Assembly (NCBI GenBank): GCA_019429365.1
Contig: JAHYJD010000032.1
Coordinates: 1-32,723, forward strand
Direction of reading: 5' to 3'
Length of the DNA stretch: 32,723 nucleotides
From: Bacteroidales bacterium
Lineage (GTDB): Bacteria > Bacteroidota > Bacteroidia > Bacteroidales > UBA7960
A program made the translations under genes and the position numbers. Shown here piece after piece: positions 23,909 through 30,439 of the stretch. The notes under the pieces are model-generated. The model was not told the DNA's origin, searched no databases, and saw only the letters and a program-made list of their open reading frames with translations. Within the stretch, counting starts at the first letter, position 1. Every line of letters begins with the position of its first letter.

Positions 23909-24634
23909 ATGATCGAAAAAACCAGCGGCATTGTGTTGCATCACTTCAGCTATGGCGAAACCAGCGTCATTGCTAAAATATTTACCCGTGAAGCAGGCCT
24001 GCAATCGTTTATTGTGCCGGGGGTAAGAAAGGCAAAAGCCCGCATCAAGCAGAATATTTTCCAGCCGCTGACCATCGTCGATATGGTAATTTACCGCAAG
24101 GAGCGCGATGGATTGCAGCACATCCGTGAAATCACAAACCCTGAGCCCTGGCAAAGCATTCCATACGACATCACCAAAACCTCCATTGCCATTTTCCTTG
24201 CTGAGATACTTTCGGGCGTGCTGAAAGAGTCGGACACCAGCACGGCCATGTTCGATTTTGTAAAAGAATCATTGGTATTTCTTGATCAAGCCGAGGGGCG
24301 AATTGCCGACTTTCACCTGGTATTTTTGTTGCAGCTCAGCGGACACCTGGGCTTTTCGCCACGGAACAATTTCAATGAGTACTGTTGCTTTTTTAACCTT
24401 GCAGAAGGTCTGTATCAAACCGTATATTATGGCCCCGAGATCTGCCTCGACAAAGAGCTGAGCCAGCAGTTTACCAAGCTTAGCAAGTGCGGTTTCGGAG
24501 ATTTGGAGGGCATTCACTTGAAACCCGAACACCGGAAAACTTTGCTGCATAAAACCATCGATTACTACCGCTTTCATTTGGAAGGCTTGAAGGAAATTAA
24601 ATCGCACCACGTGCTGGAGAGCGTGCTGCATTAG
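23909..24634 (+). CDS. recO: DNA repair protein RecO
   Basis: The protein is 241 residues from ATG 23909 (MIEKTSGIVLHHFSYGETS). A TTG at 23900 would add three residues and is less likely. The N-terminal OB fold is clear (SVIAKIFTREAGLQSFIVPGVRKAKA), followed by a helical domain (SIAIFLAEILSGVLKES). The four-cysteine zinc site known from some RecO proteins is absent, which is usual for this phylum. RecO helps load RecA on SSB-coated DNA, with RecR, in gap repair. It lies 36 bases after porZ in the same direction and probably shares its promoter. It converges with the gene fragment at 24643, only 8 bases away. Confidence 0.9.
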   Translation: MIEKTSGIVLHHFSYGETSVIAKIFTREAGLQSFIVPGVRKAKARIKQNIFQPLTIVDMVIYRKERDGLQHIREITNPEPWQSIPYDITKTSIAIFLAEILSGVLKESDTSTAMFDFVKESLVFLDQAEGRIADFHLVFLLQLSGHLGFSPRNNFNEYCCFFNLAEGLYQTVYYGPEICLDKELSQQFTKLSKCGFGDLEGIHLKPEHRKTLLHKTIDYYRFHLEGLKEIKSHHVLESVLH

Positions 24635-24642
24635 GAAGCAGC

Positions 24643-25122
24643 TTATTCCACTTTTTCGATAACCAAGTGGTCAAACCAGGCATTTAGCCTGCCGGTATTC
24701 CTGAGAATTATCTGAAGGTTTCTAATCTCAGCTTCAGGAACGGTGATTTGAAGCGACAGAGAATCCCACCCAGGTCGGGATGAAGGCAGGCCAATACGAA
24801 TGTCCTTGTAAAAATGGGCGCCTTCATCACCGGTCAAAACCAAGGCCCCGTTGAACCATGGGGAATTTCTTTTTACTGATACCACCCATTGTTCACCAGG
24901 CTCCACCGGAATAAATGTCGAAATGTTTTGTTCTGTTCTTCGACCCAATTTCAGGCTGTACTCACCGGAAAATGCCTTTCCGGAAATACGGGAAGTACCC
25001 GGATTAAAAAAATGTTGGCCATCATTCGAAACAATAAACTGTCCGGAATCATCCATTTTTTACATGTCGAAAACAATGGTTTCCAACACCTGGTATTGGG
25101 GCTTTTCACGCTTGATGACAGC
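24643..25122 (-). pseudogene. Broken gene: C-terminal jelly-roll-like domain with an in-frame stop
   Basis: The longest intact frame is 137 residues from an ATG at 25056 (MDDSGQFIVSNDGQHFFN), with no signal peptide. Its second half looks like a carbohydrate-binding-type beta-sandwich (SGKAFSGEYSLKLGR, WVVSVKRNSPWFNGALVL, RNTGRLNAWFDHLVIEKVE). In the same frame, upstream of a TAA at 25062-25060, the sequence continues as VIKREKPQYQVLETIVFDM. That reads like the preceding part of a Bacteroidota membrane protein ending in such a domain. A TGA at 25125-25123 then closes it. I infer the remnant of a longer gene whose 5' part is lost. The family is not identified. It could also be a short intact cytoplasmic protein, but no promoter or good ribosome site is seen. 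Confidence 0.5.
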
Positions 25123-25468
25123 TCAACGGTTAAGAGTAAAAAAGCATTAACTTGTATGGCTTAAAAAAGTTCCAATTGTTGCTTGGCTCTTTTCTGAATA
25201 ATAAAAGAGGTTTCCTGGGATTTTTTATTGGATTTTTTGGGATTTTAAAGTAAAAATTGGTGGGGGATTTAAATCTATTTCCCTATATTACTGCAATAAC
25301 CTTGATCAGTAAATATGTTCTTATTTATGGCATCTTGCTGAAGTGGTCTATTATTTTTTGATTCAAGTAACACTTTTTTATAAAAAATATTACTTTTACC
25401 AAAGTAAGACTTCACTTAAAAGATAAATTTTATGCCCTAATTTTAATTTATAAACAAAATCTTTTACT
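25123..25468. other. AT-rich intergenic stretch upstream of the lectin-metallopeptidase gene
   Basis: No convincing gene or TAnnTTTG element was found. It contains a short inverted repeat, TTACTTT (25390-25396) and AAAGTAA (25401-25407), with a 4-base loop, which could be an operator or hairpin about 60 bases before the ATG at 25469. It also contains near-duplicate GGATTTTTT stretches around 25217-25240. Base composition is clearly lower in G+C than the porZ-recO side. Confidence 0.4.
25390..25407. repeat. Perfect 7-base inverted repeat (possible operator)
   Basis: TTACTTT-TACC-AAAGTAA lies about 60 bases upstream of the ATG at 25469. The half-sites suit a dimeric regulator, but chance is possible in AT-rich DNA. 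Confidence 0.3.
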
Positions 25469-26712
25469 ATGAAAAAAATCTTTTTTTTGACCTTTGCAAT
25501 TTTTGCTTTTTTTCTTGCGAAAAAGATACTAGCATAAAAGAAGAAACTCCTCAAACTGAAAATGAATTTCAGTATATCGACCTTAACTCTTTAAGAGAAA
25601 GTCCGATTTACAAGCTAATCCTTACTCTAGGTTTTGACGAATCAGAAATCCGAATTAGCGACAAATATTTAATTGTGCAAGGAGACATTTTATTTCCCCT
25701 GAGTTACTATAAAGAGATTTCAAGTAAACATTGGAGAACAGAGACCCTTGTTTCTTTTGAGAACCAAACTAACATAAGAGTAAAAATTGATAATTCAATA
25801 CCGCCTACAAGCCAGTGGAGAACAGCAATCAATCAGGCTATAACTAATTGGAATAATATTCCTGATTGTAGGCTCAATTTTTCTTTGGTTACATCCGGTC
25901 AATTTGATATCTTGATTAAAAGTGATGATGGGGTATTAGAGGATTACTTATGTTCATGTAGCTGGATTCCATATCCTTATTATTTGCCAGTTGCAGCTGC
26001 TGGAACTTTCCCTGTTGGGGGTAAGCCAGGTTCTGAAATATTAATAAATCTTGACGTGGAAGATTTTGATGCGGGCCCTTTGTCCTTAGCGCAAAAGACT
26101 TACAATATTTCTCATAACATAGGTCATTGCATGGGATTTCTTCACACTGATGCTCATGTTCATGAAGGTGTTTGGTACAATGATGTTTTTATTCCAGGCA
26201 CTTCATTTAATGATGAGTTTTCCATAATGAACTCACAGGATTTATGGAGAGATTGGAGCTTTTCACAAATGGATGTTTTCGCAATACAATATTTATATGG
26301 TGTTGGAAGGAGAGTTTGTTTAAGAACAAGTAATGGACATTATGTGCAAGCTTTAAATGGCGGTGGCGGAAATGTTGTTGCAAGCAGCACAAATCCTTAT
26401 GCTTGGGAAACTTTTCATCTAATGGAAAGTCCTCTTTACGGTCACCCATACTACGTTCTCCAAGCAAGAAATGGGAATTATTTACAAGCGGCAAATGGAG
26501 GAGGTGGAAACGTTGTTGCAAACAGTCCAAATCCGTGGGATTGGGAAACTTTTGAATTAATTCCCGGCCAGGAAAAAGGAACCTATTTTTTTAGAACGAA
26601 GACCACAGGTCATTTTCTTCAAGCAGAAAATGGAGGTGGAGGCAACCTAAATGCAACCAGCAATAATCCATGGGCTTGGGAATCCTTTGTTTTAATAAAT
26701 TCGCATTTTTAA
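25469..26712 (+). pseudogene. Frameshifted lipoprotein: M57-like metallopeptidase fold with HNIGH active site plus three-repeat beta-trefoil lectin-like domain
   Basis: ATG 25469 opens a lipoprotein signal (MKKIFFLTFAIFAFF). In that frame it soon stops (after LAKKILA), but the next frame continues SCEKDTSIKEETPQ and stays open to 26712. One extra T in the T7 run at 25507-25513 would join them into a lipoprotein of 414 residues. As it stands, the longest start-to-stop frame is 345 residues from GTG 25675, without a signal. The middle resembles the M57 (HEIGH) peptidases: INQAITNWNNIPDCRLNF, FPVGGKPGSEILIN, a zinc motif at 26113-26145, and the Met-turn-like SIMNSQ. The motif reads HNIGHCMGFLH, with Asn for the catalytic Glu, so it may bind zinc but should not cleave. 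The C-terminus has three repeats of about 45 residues (GGGGNVVA, WETF), a fascin/ricin-type beta-trefoil likely to bind sugars. It may be a phase-variable gene, a pseudogene or a sequencing error. Confidence 0.7.
26335..26688 (+). repeat. Three in-frame repeats of the beta-trefoil domain
   Basis: Related 81-base units lie at 26335-26415, 26473-26553 and 26608-26688 (spacing 138 and 135 bases). Each encodes G-x-Y/F-x-Q-A-x-N-G-G-G-G-N, then NP-x-x-WE-T/S-F. This threefold pattern is what a beta-trefoil fold needs. The first two units are also similar at the DNA level. Confidence 0.85.
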
Positions 26713-26723
26713 CATACATGAAA

Positions 26724-26739
26724 GCAAATTTATATTTGC
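26724..26739. terminator. Weak hairpin between the convergent lectin and membrane-protein genes
   Basis: GCAAAT (26724-26729) pairs with ATTTGC (26734-26739) around a 4-base loop. It is short and AT-rich, without a strong T run, so its action as a terminator is doubtful. Confidence 0.25.
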
Positions 26740-26783
26740 CCCCATTTCTTTCTGTTTTAAATCAAAGAAAATTAAATTTTCAT

Positions 26784-28139
26784 TTAAGGATATTCCGATT
26801 CTCCCCTTAAAGCTTTTTCATAATCGGGAATCTTGATAAGGTTCTCATAATTCTCGGGCCATTTTTTCTTACCGAAAATGGAAAAATAAGCCTCCTTGGT
26901 CATGCTGTCCCAGTGTAAAAGAGAAGACCGGTATTGGTTCATTTGAAACTGATTCAACCATATAAAGGCTAAAAAAATAAAAGCAGCCATCCCCTTTAGC
27001 CAAAGCTTAGAGTTGTTGGCTTTTTGAAAAAATGCTGCCAGGGGGATGGCCATAATCCCATACATGTCAATCATTGGCCTGGAACCGAAACTACCGCCAT
27101 ACCACCAGCACCACCAACTATAAATAATATAAATATTTAAAACCACGAAAATCAAAATGGGTAAAAATAAGGCCGGAACTTTTTTTCTAAGCCAAAAAAT
27201 TCCAATCAGGCCAAAAATCATCACGGGCGTATAAATTAACCAGCCTTTTCTGAAACTAAACAGGCCATGCCAAATGTTTGGCTTTAAAAAATAAAACTTC
27301 CCCTGGTCAAGATAAGAATTGAACAACCATTGACCGGTTTGCATTTTCCAAAAGGCCATTTGAGGCAATAAAACCAGGAAAGCCACAAAACCTGCCAGCA
27401 TTATTAGTTTCCAATTGTTCTTAAGCCTTTCGGCAAAGTCATTAACAGAAGCAATTCCTGTAAGAGTCGGAAACACCAAAACAATAATGTTAACAGGCCG
27501 AATCAGAACAATTAGTCCAGCAAGTAGGCCCATAACAATAGTATGTTGGATCCCTGGTTTTTTTATCCATTCCAAAGAAAAGTGGATAAATGCCGCAATT
27601 AAGGCAAAATTATACACATGCGCCATCCCAGGCTCAGAAATAACATAATAGATCAAATTGGTTGCAAAAAACACAAAGAGCAAAGTAATGCCTGTAATCG
27701 CCTCAGAATAATACCTGAGCAAAATTTTTCGCAAAAAATACAACCCTATAAATAGGTAAAAAAGGGCAGCAATAAAAATGGAAAAACCATAAGGCCAGGA
27801 ATAACCGTAGGAAGAAACAGGAAGTACCTGAGCAAACATATGAGCAACTAGAAAAAACGGAAGCCATAAAAAAGCCAATCCCATGGTCATCCTAACAATC
27901 GGTTTTCCACCGGGGGCTTCCTGTAGCCAAATAGTTCCGTCAAAATTTTCAGGCAATGATTTGGCAAATTCAAAAGAAAGATCATTAAAGATAAAAGCAG
28001 CCGGAAGATAAGCATAATATGAAATGACATCATTTTGGATCACCCGGTTCTTGCCCCAGGAGTTCAAATTCTTTCCATACCAGGCAGCAGCGATCATTAT
28101 GAAAATAATGGCTGCCATTGAGAAGTTTTTCTTTATCAT
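26784..28139 (-). CDS. Multi-spanning GT-C-like membrane glycosyltransferase (ArnT/PMT-like)
   Basis: The protein is 451 residues from the ATG at 28139 (MIKKNFSMAAIIFIMIAA), with AGGAG directly before it. An open frame back to 28319 overlaps the methyltransferase gene and is hydrophilic, so it is rejected. About ten hydrophobic segments are seen. After the first comes a periplasmic loop with an acidic pair region (NDVISYYAYLPAAFIFNDLS), as in GT-C enzymes that take sugars from polyprenyl phosphates. WWCWWYGGSFGSRPMIDMYG in the second half is found in many Bacteroidota membrane proteins of this type. The acceptor is unknown. It is the last gene of the minus-strand operon. Its base composition is lower in G+C than the first two genes of the operon (24 of 60 on the line from 27361). 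Confidence 0.65.
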   Translation of the reverse strand: MIKKNFSMAAIIFIMIAAAWYGKNLNSWGKNRVIQNDVISYYAYLPAAFIFNDLSFEFAKSLPENFDGTIWLQEAPGGKPIVRMTMGLAFLWLPFFLVAHMFAQVLPVSSYGYSWPYGFSIFIAALFYLFIGLYFLRKILLRYYSEAITGITLLFVFFATNLIYYVISEPGMAHVYNFALIAAFIHFSLEWIKKPGIQHTIVMGLLAGLIVLIRPVNIIVLVFPTLTGIASVNDFAERLKNNWKLIMLAGFVAFLVLLPQMAFWKMQTGQWLFNSYLDQGKFYFLKPNIWHGLFSFRKGWLIYTPVMIFGLIGIFWLRKKVPALFLPILIFVVLNIYIIYSWWCWWYGGSFGSRPMIDMYGIMAIPLAAFFQKANNSKLWLKGMAAFIFLAFIWLNQFQMNQYRSSLLHWDSMTKEAYFSIFGKKKWPENYENLIKIPDYEKALRGESEYP

Positions 28140-28165
28140 CTCCTGTAGCTTTAACACCTCTCTAA

Positions 28166-28897
28166 CTATTTTTTTACGGCCACCTGAATTACTGAAACAC
28201 CAGCAAAACGGCTTGTAAACAGATCTAGAACACGCCAAACAGGCACTAAGGCATTGAATAGTCTTAACTGATTGTTGGGTATTATCCTTTTTCTCAAAAC
28301 CTTTCCAGTGAAAAACCAACCAAAAATGGCCATAAAATTGAAATACTGTGAGTGCACAACATCAAACCCTGCAGCTTCCAATACCGCTTTCAATGATTTG
28401 CTAGTATATCGCCTGAAATGCTCAAGTTGTTCATCAAATGAATTATACAATGATTGAAAAGCCGGTACAAGAATAATAACCTTGCCTCCTTTTTTCAACA
28501 TCTTCCCGGCATTATCAAGAGCCTGAACATGATCTTCGATATGTTCCAATACGTTTAGGGCAAAAATGGTGTCAAATTTACCCTGCATATCAGGAAATTT
28601 TCTGACCAAATCCTTGTCAGAAAAATCCATTAGGTTTATTCCACCCAAATTAGCCTTATCTCCAAACTTTTTCTTCAGCAATGGAAAATAACTGTTCTCA
28701 TAATCGCTTAAATTGATATCAAACCCTCCATCAATGAAAAACTCCGAAATATTTCCAATACCACTACCAATTTCCAGTATTTTACCGCTGCAATGTGGTT
28801 TGATGGTTTCGAACATCCATCGATTAAATTTCCTGGCTTTAGAAATAACTTCAAGAGTCTCCGTGCCGTATTTAGAATTCCCGGTTTTTATAGTCAT
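28166..28897 (-). CDS. Class I SAM-dependent methyltransferase
   Basis: The 243-residue protein has motif I ILEIGSGIGNISEFF (SAM binding), an acidic residue after strand 2 (INLSDYENSYF), FDTIFALNVLEHIEDH (motif IV region) and MLKKGGKVIILVPAFQ. The C-terminal part is hydrophobic (YFNFMAIFGWFFTGKVL), suggesting contact with the membrane or a lipid-linked substrate. Similar proteins often sit in glycan or lipid-linked sugar clusters, and may methylate a sugar or the lipid carrier. It lies 26 bases before the GT-C-like gene 26784-28139 and 51 bases after the GT-C gene 28949-30439, so it is probably part of one operon. The substrate is not predictable. Confidence 0.82.
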   Translation of the reverse strand: MTIKTGNSKYGTETLEVISKARKFNRWMFETIKPHCSGKILEIGSGIGNISEFFIDGGFDINLSDYENSYFPLLKKKFGDKANLGGINLMDFSDKDLVRKFPDMQGKFDTIFALNVLEHIEDHVQALDNAGKMLKKGGKVIILVPAFQSLYNSFDEQLEHFRRYTSKSLKAVLEAAGFDVVHSQYFNFMAIFGWFFTGKVLRKRIIPNNQLRLFNALVPVWRVLDLFTSRFAGVSVIQVAVKK

Positions 28898-28948
28898 TGT
28901 ATTATTTAAGCAATTTCAAGAAAAAAGGACATTTGCAGATTTTCAGAC

Positions 28949-30439
28949 TTAGTCTTCACCCTTTTCAGGGACAAAACTATCGTTAGCAAAATTCTCGTCC
29001 ACGTCAAGCCTTCGGAAAACCGCTACTTTGTAATCTGTTTCGAAAATGGTAAAAGGATGCGCAGGTTCAAAAAGCCCCAGCATTTCATAATACGGACTGT
29101 TTTGCAAGTCTTCGAGCTTCACCCCTTCCAGGGCCATAAAATGCCCTTCCCAAATCACAATTTCACCAGGTTTTACTTCATAATGGGGTTTGGATGAATT
29201 GGGTAGCCTGAAGCGCGATTTGCTATCGTCAAAGGGATTCAGGTCAAGAAACATCTCAAAAGCAGGGTCAGAATAGTAGAGTTTATTCTGGTTAAGCTTT
29301 TCATGGATCATAAAATCGGCGGCTTCCTTCATCACTATGTTCATGCCATCGAGTTTCTGCGGGATGCGATACCTTTGGAAAGGAATAGAGACAAAAAGCG
29401 CCATTACTACGACTCCAAAAAAATAACCTGCTAGTTTTGGGCGGGTTAAGCGCTCGAGAGATTTAAATATTGTATTGAAGCCCCGTAATGCCAGCAGCGC
29501 CCCCACGGGAACGATGGAAATCATGTAGCGGTACATGCCCAGTGATCGCCCTATACCCGAGTACCACATTACCACGTGTGCCATAAAATACAGCGCAAAT
29601 GGCAAAATGATAAGTATGGCTTCATCCAAATGGCGACTCTCTCTCTTTCGAAGCAGATCGAACATTATGGCCAGAATACCAAGCGGAATCAGCAGGTAGT
29701 TAATTGCCCCGAAAATTTTTGGCCAAACATCGAAATAGTACCAGAAACTGCCCGTGCCATACATTTCGGCTTTGCCGGAATAAGGCATCTGGGTTATCAG
29801 CCAAAAGAAATCGCCAAAGTGAAAATAGCCAATAATGCTGTAAGTTAGGGTGCCGGTGAGCAACCATGGAATATGCCGGTATTGCTTTTTCACCAGGAAA
29901 AACAACCCGATAATGGGAATGATAATAATGCCTTCGGTCCGCACAAGGTGCGAGAAAGAAATGACCACGGCCGCCCAGAAGTATTTTTTTTCAAGGCAAA
30001 GCCATACCGTGGCCATAATAAAAAGCCCAAACAGCACTTCCACCTGCCCGGAAATGACCAGCAGGGTATAAATAGGAGTGAAGAAGACCAGAAAGGGCAA
30101 CAATAAGCGGTTGGAGTACCCAAGCTTTTTTGCAGAAAGCCACACCAACCAGGCACTTGCAATGCCCGAAAGCAAGTTGAAAACGGATACTCCTGAATGG
30201 CCAAATTGTGCAAAGGGGCTGGTAAGCAGGGTAAACACCGGCTTGGCCCAGTGATCGAGCAAAAATGCCGGAAACTGCCATGAATATCTTGAAAAGCGAT
30301 AATGCGTTACGCTGTCAGCATCGCCAACAAAGCCTTCTGAACGGAATAAAATCCACAAAAAGAAAAAAAAGAGACTCGATAAAATCAACCCAAGAGCAAG
30401 TTTCTCTTCAGGAAAATATTTTTCAGTTTTCTTAAGCAT
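28949..30439 (-). CDS. GT-C superfamily membrane glycosyltransferase
   Basis: The protein is 496 residues from the ATG at 30439 (MLKKTEKYFPEEKLALG). A start at 30505 would overlap the GT2 gene by 40 bases, so it is rejected. The first membrane segment is followed by a periplasmic loop containing GDADSVTHYRFSRYSW. This carries the Asp-containing pattern of PMT/ArnT-like enzymes, which transfer a sugar from a polyprenyl phosphate to a protein or lipid. About ten further hydrophobic segments follow, including HLVRTEGIIIIPIIGLFFLV. A soluble C-terminal domain of about 110 residues is periplasmic or cytoplasmic. It starts 26 bases after the GT2 gene, whose product probably makes its donor. The acceptor is unknown. 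G+C is near that of the core genes. Confidence 0.72.
   Translation of the reverse strand: MLKKTEKYFPEEKLALGLILSSLFFFFLWILFRSEGFVGDADSVTHYRFSRYSWQFPAFLLDHWAKPVFTLLTSPFAQFGHSGVSVFNLLSGIASAWLVWLSAKKLGYSNRLLLPFLVFFTPIYTLLVISGQVEVLFGLFIMATVWLCLEKKYFWAAVVISFSHLVRTEGIIIIPIIGLFFLVKKQYRHIPWLLTGTLTYSIIGYFHFGDFFWLITQMPYSGKAEMYGTGSFWYYFDVWPKIFGAINYLLIPLGILAIMFDLLRKRESRHLDEAILIILPFALYFMAHVVMWYSGIGRSLGMYRYMISIVPVGALLALRGFNTIFKSLERLTRPKLAGYFFGVVVMALFVSIPFQRYRIPQKLDGMNIVMKEAADFMIHEKLNQNKLYYSDPAFEMFLDLNPFDDSKSRFRLPNSSKPHYEVKPGEIVIWEGHFMALEGVKLEDLQNSPYYEMLGLFEPAHPFTIFETDYKVAVFRRLDVDENFANDSFVPEKGED

Follow-up and report, generated by a model that had tools for sequence, protein, structure and literature searches.

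The window, i.e. the whole stretch of 32,723 nucleotides analysed here (contig C196 of a 3.57-Mb Bacteroidales assembly, 95.9% complete and 4.88% contaminated), carries a gene that probably encodes a pseudopeptidase, a reading to which a probability of about 0.6 is assigned: an M57 metallopeptidase-like domain that has the three-His site and the Met-turn but not the catalytic Glu, followed by a CBM92-like beta-trefoil, with a role in binding or recognition. In metzincins, this Glu activates water, and forms that lack it are expected to bind rather than to cut. No published description of Glu-less M57 proteins was found in the open-licence literature.

Domain layout and motif site

The gene consists of the following parts (the leader and the WExF motifs were read directly from the sequence).
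25469–25537, plus strand: leader frame, with ATG, a hydrophobic signal-peptide-like stretch and a stop, out of frame with the body
25507–25513, plus strand: T run where the frame is lost; comparison of the copies in the genus gives lengths that differ by one
25516–26712, plus strand: gene body, which starts at the would-be lipobox Cys and stays open for 398 codons until the stop
25720–26301, plus strand: M57 (PF12388) metallopeptidase-like domain; the Pfam match covers 25720–26163 and the alignment extends to the YLYG end
26113–26145, plus strand: HNIGHCMGFLH, i.e. HExxHxxGxxH with the three His and the Gly intact and Glu replaced by Asn at 26116–26118
26221–26232, plus strand: SIMN, the intact Met-turn of the metzincin-like domain, the Met238 of which is shared by 40 of 40 Glu-bearing rows
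26302–26703, plus strand: beta-trefoil, DUF7910/CBM92-like, with three repeats at a spacing of 135–138 bases
26404–26415, plus strand: WExF motif 1 (WETF), of the kind described in PMC11039641
26542–26553, plus strand: WExF motif 2 (WETF)
26677–26688, plus strand: WExF motif 3 (WESF)

An earlier note on this DNA had assigned the domain to the M57 family, and this call is borne out by a score of 33.1 bits against PF12388, above the curated Pfam threshold of 21, and by the SIMN downstream; for the same two reasons, HNIGHCMGFLH is not a chance occurrence. The codons at 26113–26145 (CAT AAC ATA GGT CAT TGC ATG GGA TTT CTT CAC) yield the motif as the note had given it, and its statement that at least two base changes separate this Asn codon from a Glu codon agrees with the code table. 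A sequencing error at the Asn codon was rejected, the identical 33 bases being present in two further assemblies (L006 and L007).

Ten columns are invariant among 40 Glu-bearing M57 rows (N113, H200, E201, G203, H204, G207, H210, S236, M238 and D253), a set counted after removal of nine weaker HExxH proteins that fall outside the M57-lipoprotein type (L012, L014, L044 and L083 to L088, all with Glu), of L004, a short fragment with Asn, and of three spurious regex matches. The window domain, L003, L008 and L013 each retain nine of these ten columns, and the sole loss is E201. H200, H204, H210 and M238 are thus all present in the window at the sequence level; a metal would probably be bound at the three-His site, and the window protein is predicted to lack proteolytic activity. 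AlphaFold2 models built from an alignment of three rows, one of most of the body (pLDDT 38.8) and one of the M57 domain (pLDDT 38.6), are too low in confidence to be of use.

Compared with Peptidase_M57 (PF12388), the family of dual-action HEIGH metallo-peptidases, the window domain has the same three His, Gly, Met-turn, Asn113 and Asp253 but contains Asn in place of the catalytic Glu of HExxHxxGxxH that characterizes M57, lacks the Ser-Cys loop found in 34 of the 40 Glu-bearing rows, and is followed by a trefoil. The nearest Glu-bearing rows by sequence (L018, L019, L021 and L020, with 32–38% domain identity to the window), the first three of which share the NWNN..DC stretch with it, differ in having HELGH with the Glu, another C-terminal part and no WExF trefoil. 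The metzincin pseudopeptidases described in the available portion of PMC11266112 are animal ADAMs (M12), which resemble the window protein in being metzincin-type, in retaining the Met-turn and in having binding domains attached; many of their zinc-binding residues are substituted as well, whereas in the window gene only the Glu is replaced. Glu replacements and the presumed inactivity that accompanies them are discussed in section 6 of PMC3650047.

The C-terminal domain, which the note had called a beta-trefoil, is one, and can be placed more closely as DUF7910/CBM92-like: it scores 59.4 bits against DUF7910 (Pfam cut-off 35), and its best solved relatives are the CBM92 modules 7ZOI (E = 3e-8) and 7ZOH (E = 1e-6), i.e. 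CpCBM92A and CpCBM92B in PMC11039641. The window domain is homologous to the CBM92 beta-trefoil, with the same trefoil repeats and a WExF motif closing each of the three subdomains (W297, W343 and W388, numbered from the lipobox Cys). In PMC11039641, the WExF motifs of CBM92 are tied to three sugar-binding sites, and nearly every CBM92 protein is stated to carry a glycoside hydrolase or a polysaccharide lyase, whereas the partner in the window is an M57-like domain. Binding of beta-1,6-glucans is one criterion for CBM92, and the window trefoil is a putative sugar-binding domain.

Relatives, surveys and selection

A pattern scan of genome contigs, with a reach confined to close relatives, recovered three proteins with an M57 domain and a trefoil, L006, L007 and L008. 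The closest, L006 (UBA4814), is 98% identical to the window copy, and the Asn codon together with all 33 bases of the motif is identical in the window, L006 and L007, i.e. in all three of the copies found in the genus. L008, the only M57-trefoil protein found outside the genus, is an intact Flavobacteriales lipoprotein of the same architecture, 56% identical, in which Cys takes the place of Glu (HCIGHAVGFRH); its M57 domain scores 39.4 bits against PF12388, and the three WExF motifs are present as well. The earlier note had proposed to align homologues at the HExxH position and had named, as a result that would speak for simple decay, close homologues that all have Glu combined with other disabling changes in this copy: the close homologues found are all Glu-less (N, N and C), which disposes of the former part, while the latter part holds, the window leader being out of frame. 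The other 199 genomes of the family of L008 yielded no second member, and a permissive scan of the 319 genomes of its order besides its own gave one weak match (L104), which bears Glu. Near the L008 gene (L091, G716:C106) lie the type II/IV secretion genes T2SSE and T2SSF, a two-component system, a gene for a MORN protein and one for a large protein that ends in a T9SS sorting tail.

A survey of 395 genomes across the phylum with PF12388 produced 42 match rows in 36 genomes, with the motif read inside every match (for L054, at a contig end, the Glu motif was read separately); Glu is present in 41 of the 42, and the window has Asn. In the survey of the order (295 genomes), there are 10 match rows in 7 genomes, three of them Glu-less, with Asn in the window, Ala in L013 and HNILHCLGLHH in L017. 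The first tree comprises 44 rows, 40 with Glu and the remaining four being the window, L003, L008 and L013; Glu is found in 40 of its 41 more distant rows, the exception being L013 (Ala). The window's own genome, at 95.9% completeness, contains a single M57 match, which disfavours the idea that the protein acts as a decoy for, or a regulator of, an active M57 paralogue encoded alongside it. Cargo of phages or plasmids was likewise considered and rejected: 50,697 phage records and 72,556 plasmid records were searched without a match, and a scan of viral contigs with two peptide patterns gave none that could be confirmed.

Selection was assessed with omega from Nei–Gojobori counts and the Fisher test. 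Since the genus copies were exchanged only recently, the codon counts in their pairs are small: the window and L007 differ by 10 synonymous and 6 non-synonymous changes (omega 0.15, Fisher 3e-4), with 8 and 10 between L006 and L007 (omega 0.32, Fisher 0.019), and 4 and 8 between the window and L006 (omega 0.52, Fisher 0.28, not different from 1). Between the window and L008, the residue is the same in 127 of the 250 aligned M57 codons and in 89 of the 136 trefoil codons, with synonymous change in excess and the synonymous sites saturated. In two of the three recent pairs, the Asn form is thus under purifying selection. By the comparison with L008, the protein has long been constrained, most simply after the loss of the Glu, which is absent from both the window and L008; two independent losses after the split of the two are possible. 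In a pseudopeptidase, the catalytic residue is lost and the fold is under selection, and this combination is observed here, though one pair is not significant and all three copies are frame-broken.

Three trees bear on the number of losses. In the first, built from all rows, an open fork joins the Asn and Cys forms to the Glu-bearing L020 and L028, and because they are left unsplit from these rows, two separate losses of Glu are possible. The second tree, with L013, L024, L028 and L040 left out, groups the window clade with L008 at 53/28, and the third (44 rows, with L017/L121, L114, L115 and L117 added and the Glu-bearing long-branch L024, L027, L028 and L040 left out) does so at 90/84. The pairing rests mainly on the M57 domain identity of 54% between the window and L008, compared with at most 38% (window) and at most 39% (L008) to the Glu-bearing rows of the second tree, together with the trefoil that they have in common. 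The Glu was probably lost once in this lineage, before the Asn form of the Bacteroidales and the Cys form of the Flavobacteriales diverged. In the third tree, the Ala clade and the Glu-bearing L020 come together at 89/91, apart from the window clade, and L121, the same gene as L017, lies on a long branch among canonical M57 rows; the Glu label requires three changes, and the starred branches force at least two. These placements are provisional, given the long branches, and the hypothesis that all eight Glu-less rows share one origin has a p-AU of 0.042, a value that is subject to the same long branches and to the group having been named after the trees were seen.

Glu-less M57 domains in other Bacteroidales

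Starting from the Ala form L013, five related genes, L113 to L117, were found in one genus (family f113), where two of the 14 genomes (G245 and G1373) carry them. Their motifs (HAVGH, HAFGH in two genes, HAIGH and HAMGH) continue with xxGxxH, and a Met-turn-like SIM comes after it in every case; the Ala protein P0003 scores 25.9 bits against PF12388, and L116, with an incomplete start, was too short to enter any tree. Like the window gene, these are Glu-less M57 genes that retain the three His, the Gly and the Met, with lipoprotein-like leaders where the start is present; unlike it, they have Ala instead of Asn and no trefoil, and three of them lie behind BIG2 lipoprotein genes. The pair L114–L115 has an omega of 0.22 (Fisher 1e-10), and the other computable pairs of the clade range from 0.14 to 0.31 at high divergence.

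In G245, L113, L115 and L117 each follow a BIG2 lipoprotein gene. The BIG2 partners are alike over the first ~120 residues (30–40 of 40 identical per block) and not over the remainder (3–17 of 31–38 per block), and the adjoining M57 domains are 24–61% identical per block before their C-terminal end. The variable block covers the junction of the two genes and is preceded by DNA that is 91–96% identical; downstream of it, L113 and L115 are 98% identical over 1.2 kb, and identity with L117 extends for ~120 bases (83–92%), after which the tail is different. Because the variable block spans the junction, we infer that the variable BIG2 and M57 domains interact. A phage-type integrase gene follows one of the G245 cassettes (L119, 14253–15380). 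No BIG2-like partner was detected by Pfam among the eight ORFs scanned beside the window gene.

L017 (L121; G218:C5:17187–17753) is the third gene of a tandem M57 cluster, with two HEIGH paralogues beside it. Its Glu has likewise been replaced by Asn. The three His are intact, as is the Gly at position 8 of the motif; a Met-turn-like AIMN is also present, and Leu stands where G203 would be. In G115, which has a similar pair, the survey of the order gave no third match, and the 9 kb read there (L120) contain none either.

State of the gene copies and competing explanations

The earlier note had reconstructed a protein of 414 residues. This is not an intact ORF: the frame of the ATG at 25469 encodes the hydrophobic leader and stops after 22 codons, and the first ATG, GTG or TTG in the open frame of the body is the GTG at 25675, so that the signal peptide and the body lie in different frames. 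L006 has a T run of the same length as the window and, likewise, a leader out of frame. In L007, the counterpart of the leader is in frame and reads MKKIFFLTFAIFAFFSCEKDTS, with FFSCEKD as the lipobox, and the gene is broken mid-way, at a place that is not a T run. Each of the three copies in the genus accordingly has one frame break, in the leader (window and L006) or mid-gene (L007), the body is free of stops in two of them, and among the four copies only L008 combines an intact leader with an intact body. An in-frame signal peptide with a lipobox Cys, as judged by eye, is present in L007 and L008 and absent from the window and L006; by the lipobox-like leaders of these two copies, the protein would be located at the surface, and the gene product appears to be meant as a secreted lipoprotein. 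With the leader out of frame at the T run, the window copy seems to be either switched off or beginning to decay, and every copy found in the genus may be inactive or on the way to being lost; the frame breaks may reflect assembly error, phase variation or early decay.

The gene lies within DNA that has recently been exchanged between species.
25000–27000, no strand: part of the recently exchanged tract; in bins of 250 bases, identity to G003 and G002, from two other species of the genus, is 94–99%
The left edge is sharp, near 25,000, where identity drops at once to 75–82%; farther left, it is 70–96% for G003 and about 74–78% for G002. On the right, identity is 91–98% to about 28,500 for G003 and 90–100% to about 29,000 for G002, and past ~28,500–29,000 it is 63–88% for the two; this edge is gradual, not sharp. 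Beyond 30,500, G003 is again mostly at 93–98%. The tract takes in the non-coding DNA upstream of the gene. Upstream, a small ORF (24643–25056, minus strand) adjoins recO, with a PorZ-like gene farther away, and downstream an ORF without a Pfam match (26784–28319, minus strand) leads into methyltransferase and glycosyltransferase genes. In G001, the fourth genome of the genus (L118, G001:C150 7327–7400), the flanking ORFs are adjacent, ~70 bases apart, the gene is absent, and no M57 match was found in the genome. Given the tract exchanged with G003 and G002 and the absence from G001, the gene is accessory and has moved between species by recombination.

Several further observations concern this locus. 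G002 has an extra ORF of 588 aa between recO and the small ORF (L092, 8774–10540), ~34% identical to the product of the window ORF 26784–28319. The gene is followed by a terminator-like palindrome (26718–26745), the left arm of which is altered in the window. The G003 contigs C27 and C46 (L093 and L101) both end near copies of this palindrome, their outer sequence ends look like inverted repeats (CTTnAGTTTGGC), and the contig ends appear as if an insertion element sat at the palindrome. Scans with Rfam (24500–27200) and for tRNAs (whole window) were empty.

The state of the copies invites the explanation that a dead gene is decaying, with the Glu lost, the copies drifting, and the leader and mid-gene breaks as later steps. 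This agrees with the one frame break in each of the three genus copies, with the window–L006 omega of 0.52, not different from neutral, and with the absence of the gene at the corresponding place in G001, and decay may account for the condition of these copies today while leaving the missing Glu unexplained. That loss is most simply old because L008, intact and 56% identical, is also without Glu; moreover, nine of the ten invariant M57 residues survive in both the window and L008, omega is 0.15 and 0.32 in two comparisons, and two genus copies have no stop in the body, which together make decay an unlikely account. The non-catalytic role suggested in the earlier note is favoured over simple decay because of the N, N and C in the relatives, the nine of ten invariants kept, the selection in two of the three pairs and the Glu-less M57 domains in other Bacteroidales; counting against it are the out-of-frame window leader and the broken genus copies.

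Surface proteins are the typical products of phase-variable loci with homopolymers, and slippage in the T run could toggle this lipoprotein, the window and L006 having been caught in the off state. The frame is indeed lost in a homopolymer of the signal peptide, the length of which differs by one between copies, but the run is short, and L007 has its leader in frame and its break elsewhere, which leaves phase variation improbable as an explanation; it is compatible with the pseudopeptidase reading and not a replacement for it. Instead of recognition, the site might have been recruited to serve a different metal-dependent chemistry or to capture metal: the N, C and A forms all retain the three His along with the Gly at motif position 8, and L008 could gain one more metal ligand through its Cys. 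The clades, however, have no replacement residue in common, and the Pfam scan of the eight neighbouring ORFs revealed no suitable partner enzyme, so that such a recruitment is highly improbable.

Under the pseudopeptidase reading, the M57 fold would hold a peptide or a partner without cleaving it, the trefoil, with its three sugar-binding motifs, would hold a beta-glucan-like polysaccharide, and a lipid anchor would carry the protein, with the trefoil keeping the non-cutting binder on the glucan. Tentatively, and at somewhat less than even odds, the Glu-less M57 domains that keep the metal site can be viewed as recurrent, selected, non-cutting recognition modules on Bacteroidota lipoproteins that have arisen two to three times in the sampled genomes, in one genus as a cassette that has diversified along with a variable lipoprotein partner, and as a fusion to CBM92 in the window clade. 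Bacteria appear to have lost the Glu alone, more than once, with the rest kept, and the role of the residual metal site is, therefore, directly testable. The fusion to CBM92 suggests that the protein is anchored to sugar and binds a peptide or a partner without cutting it.
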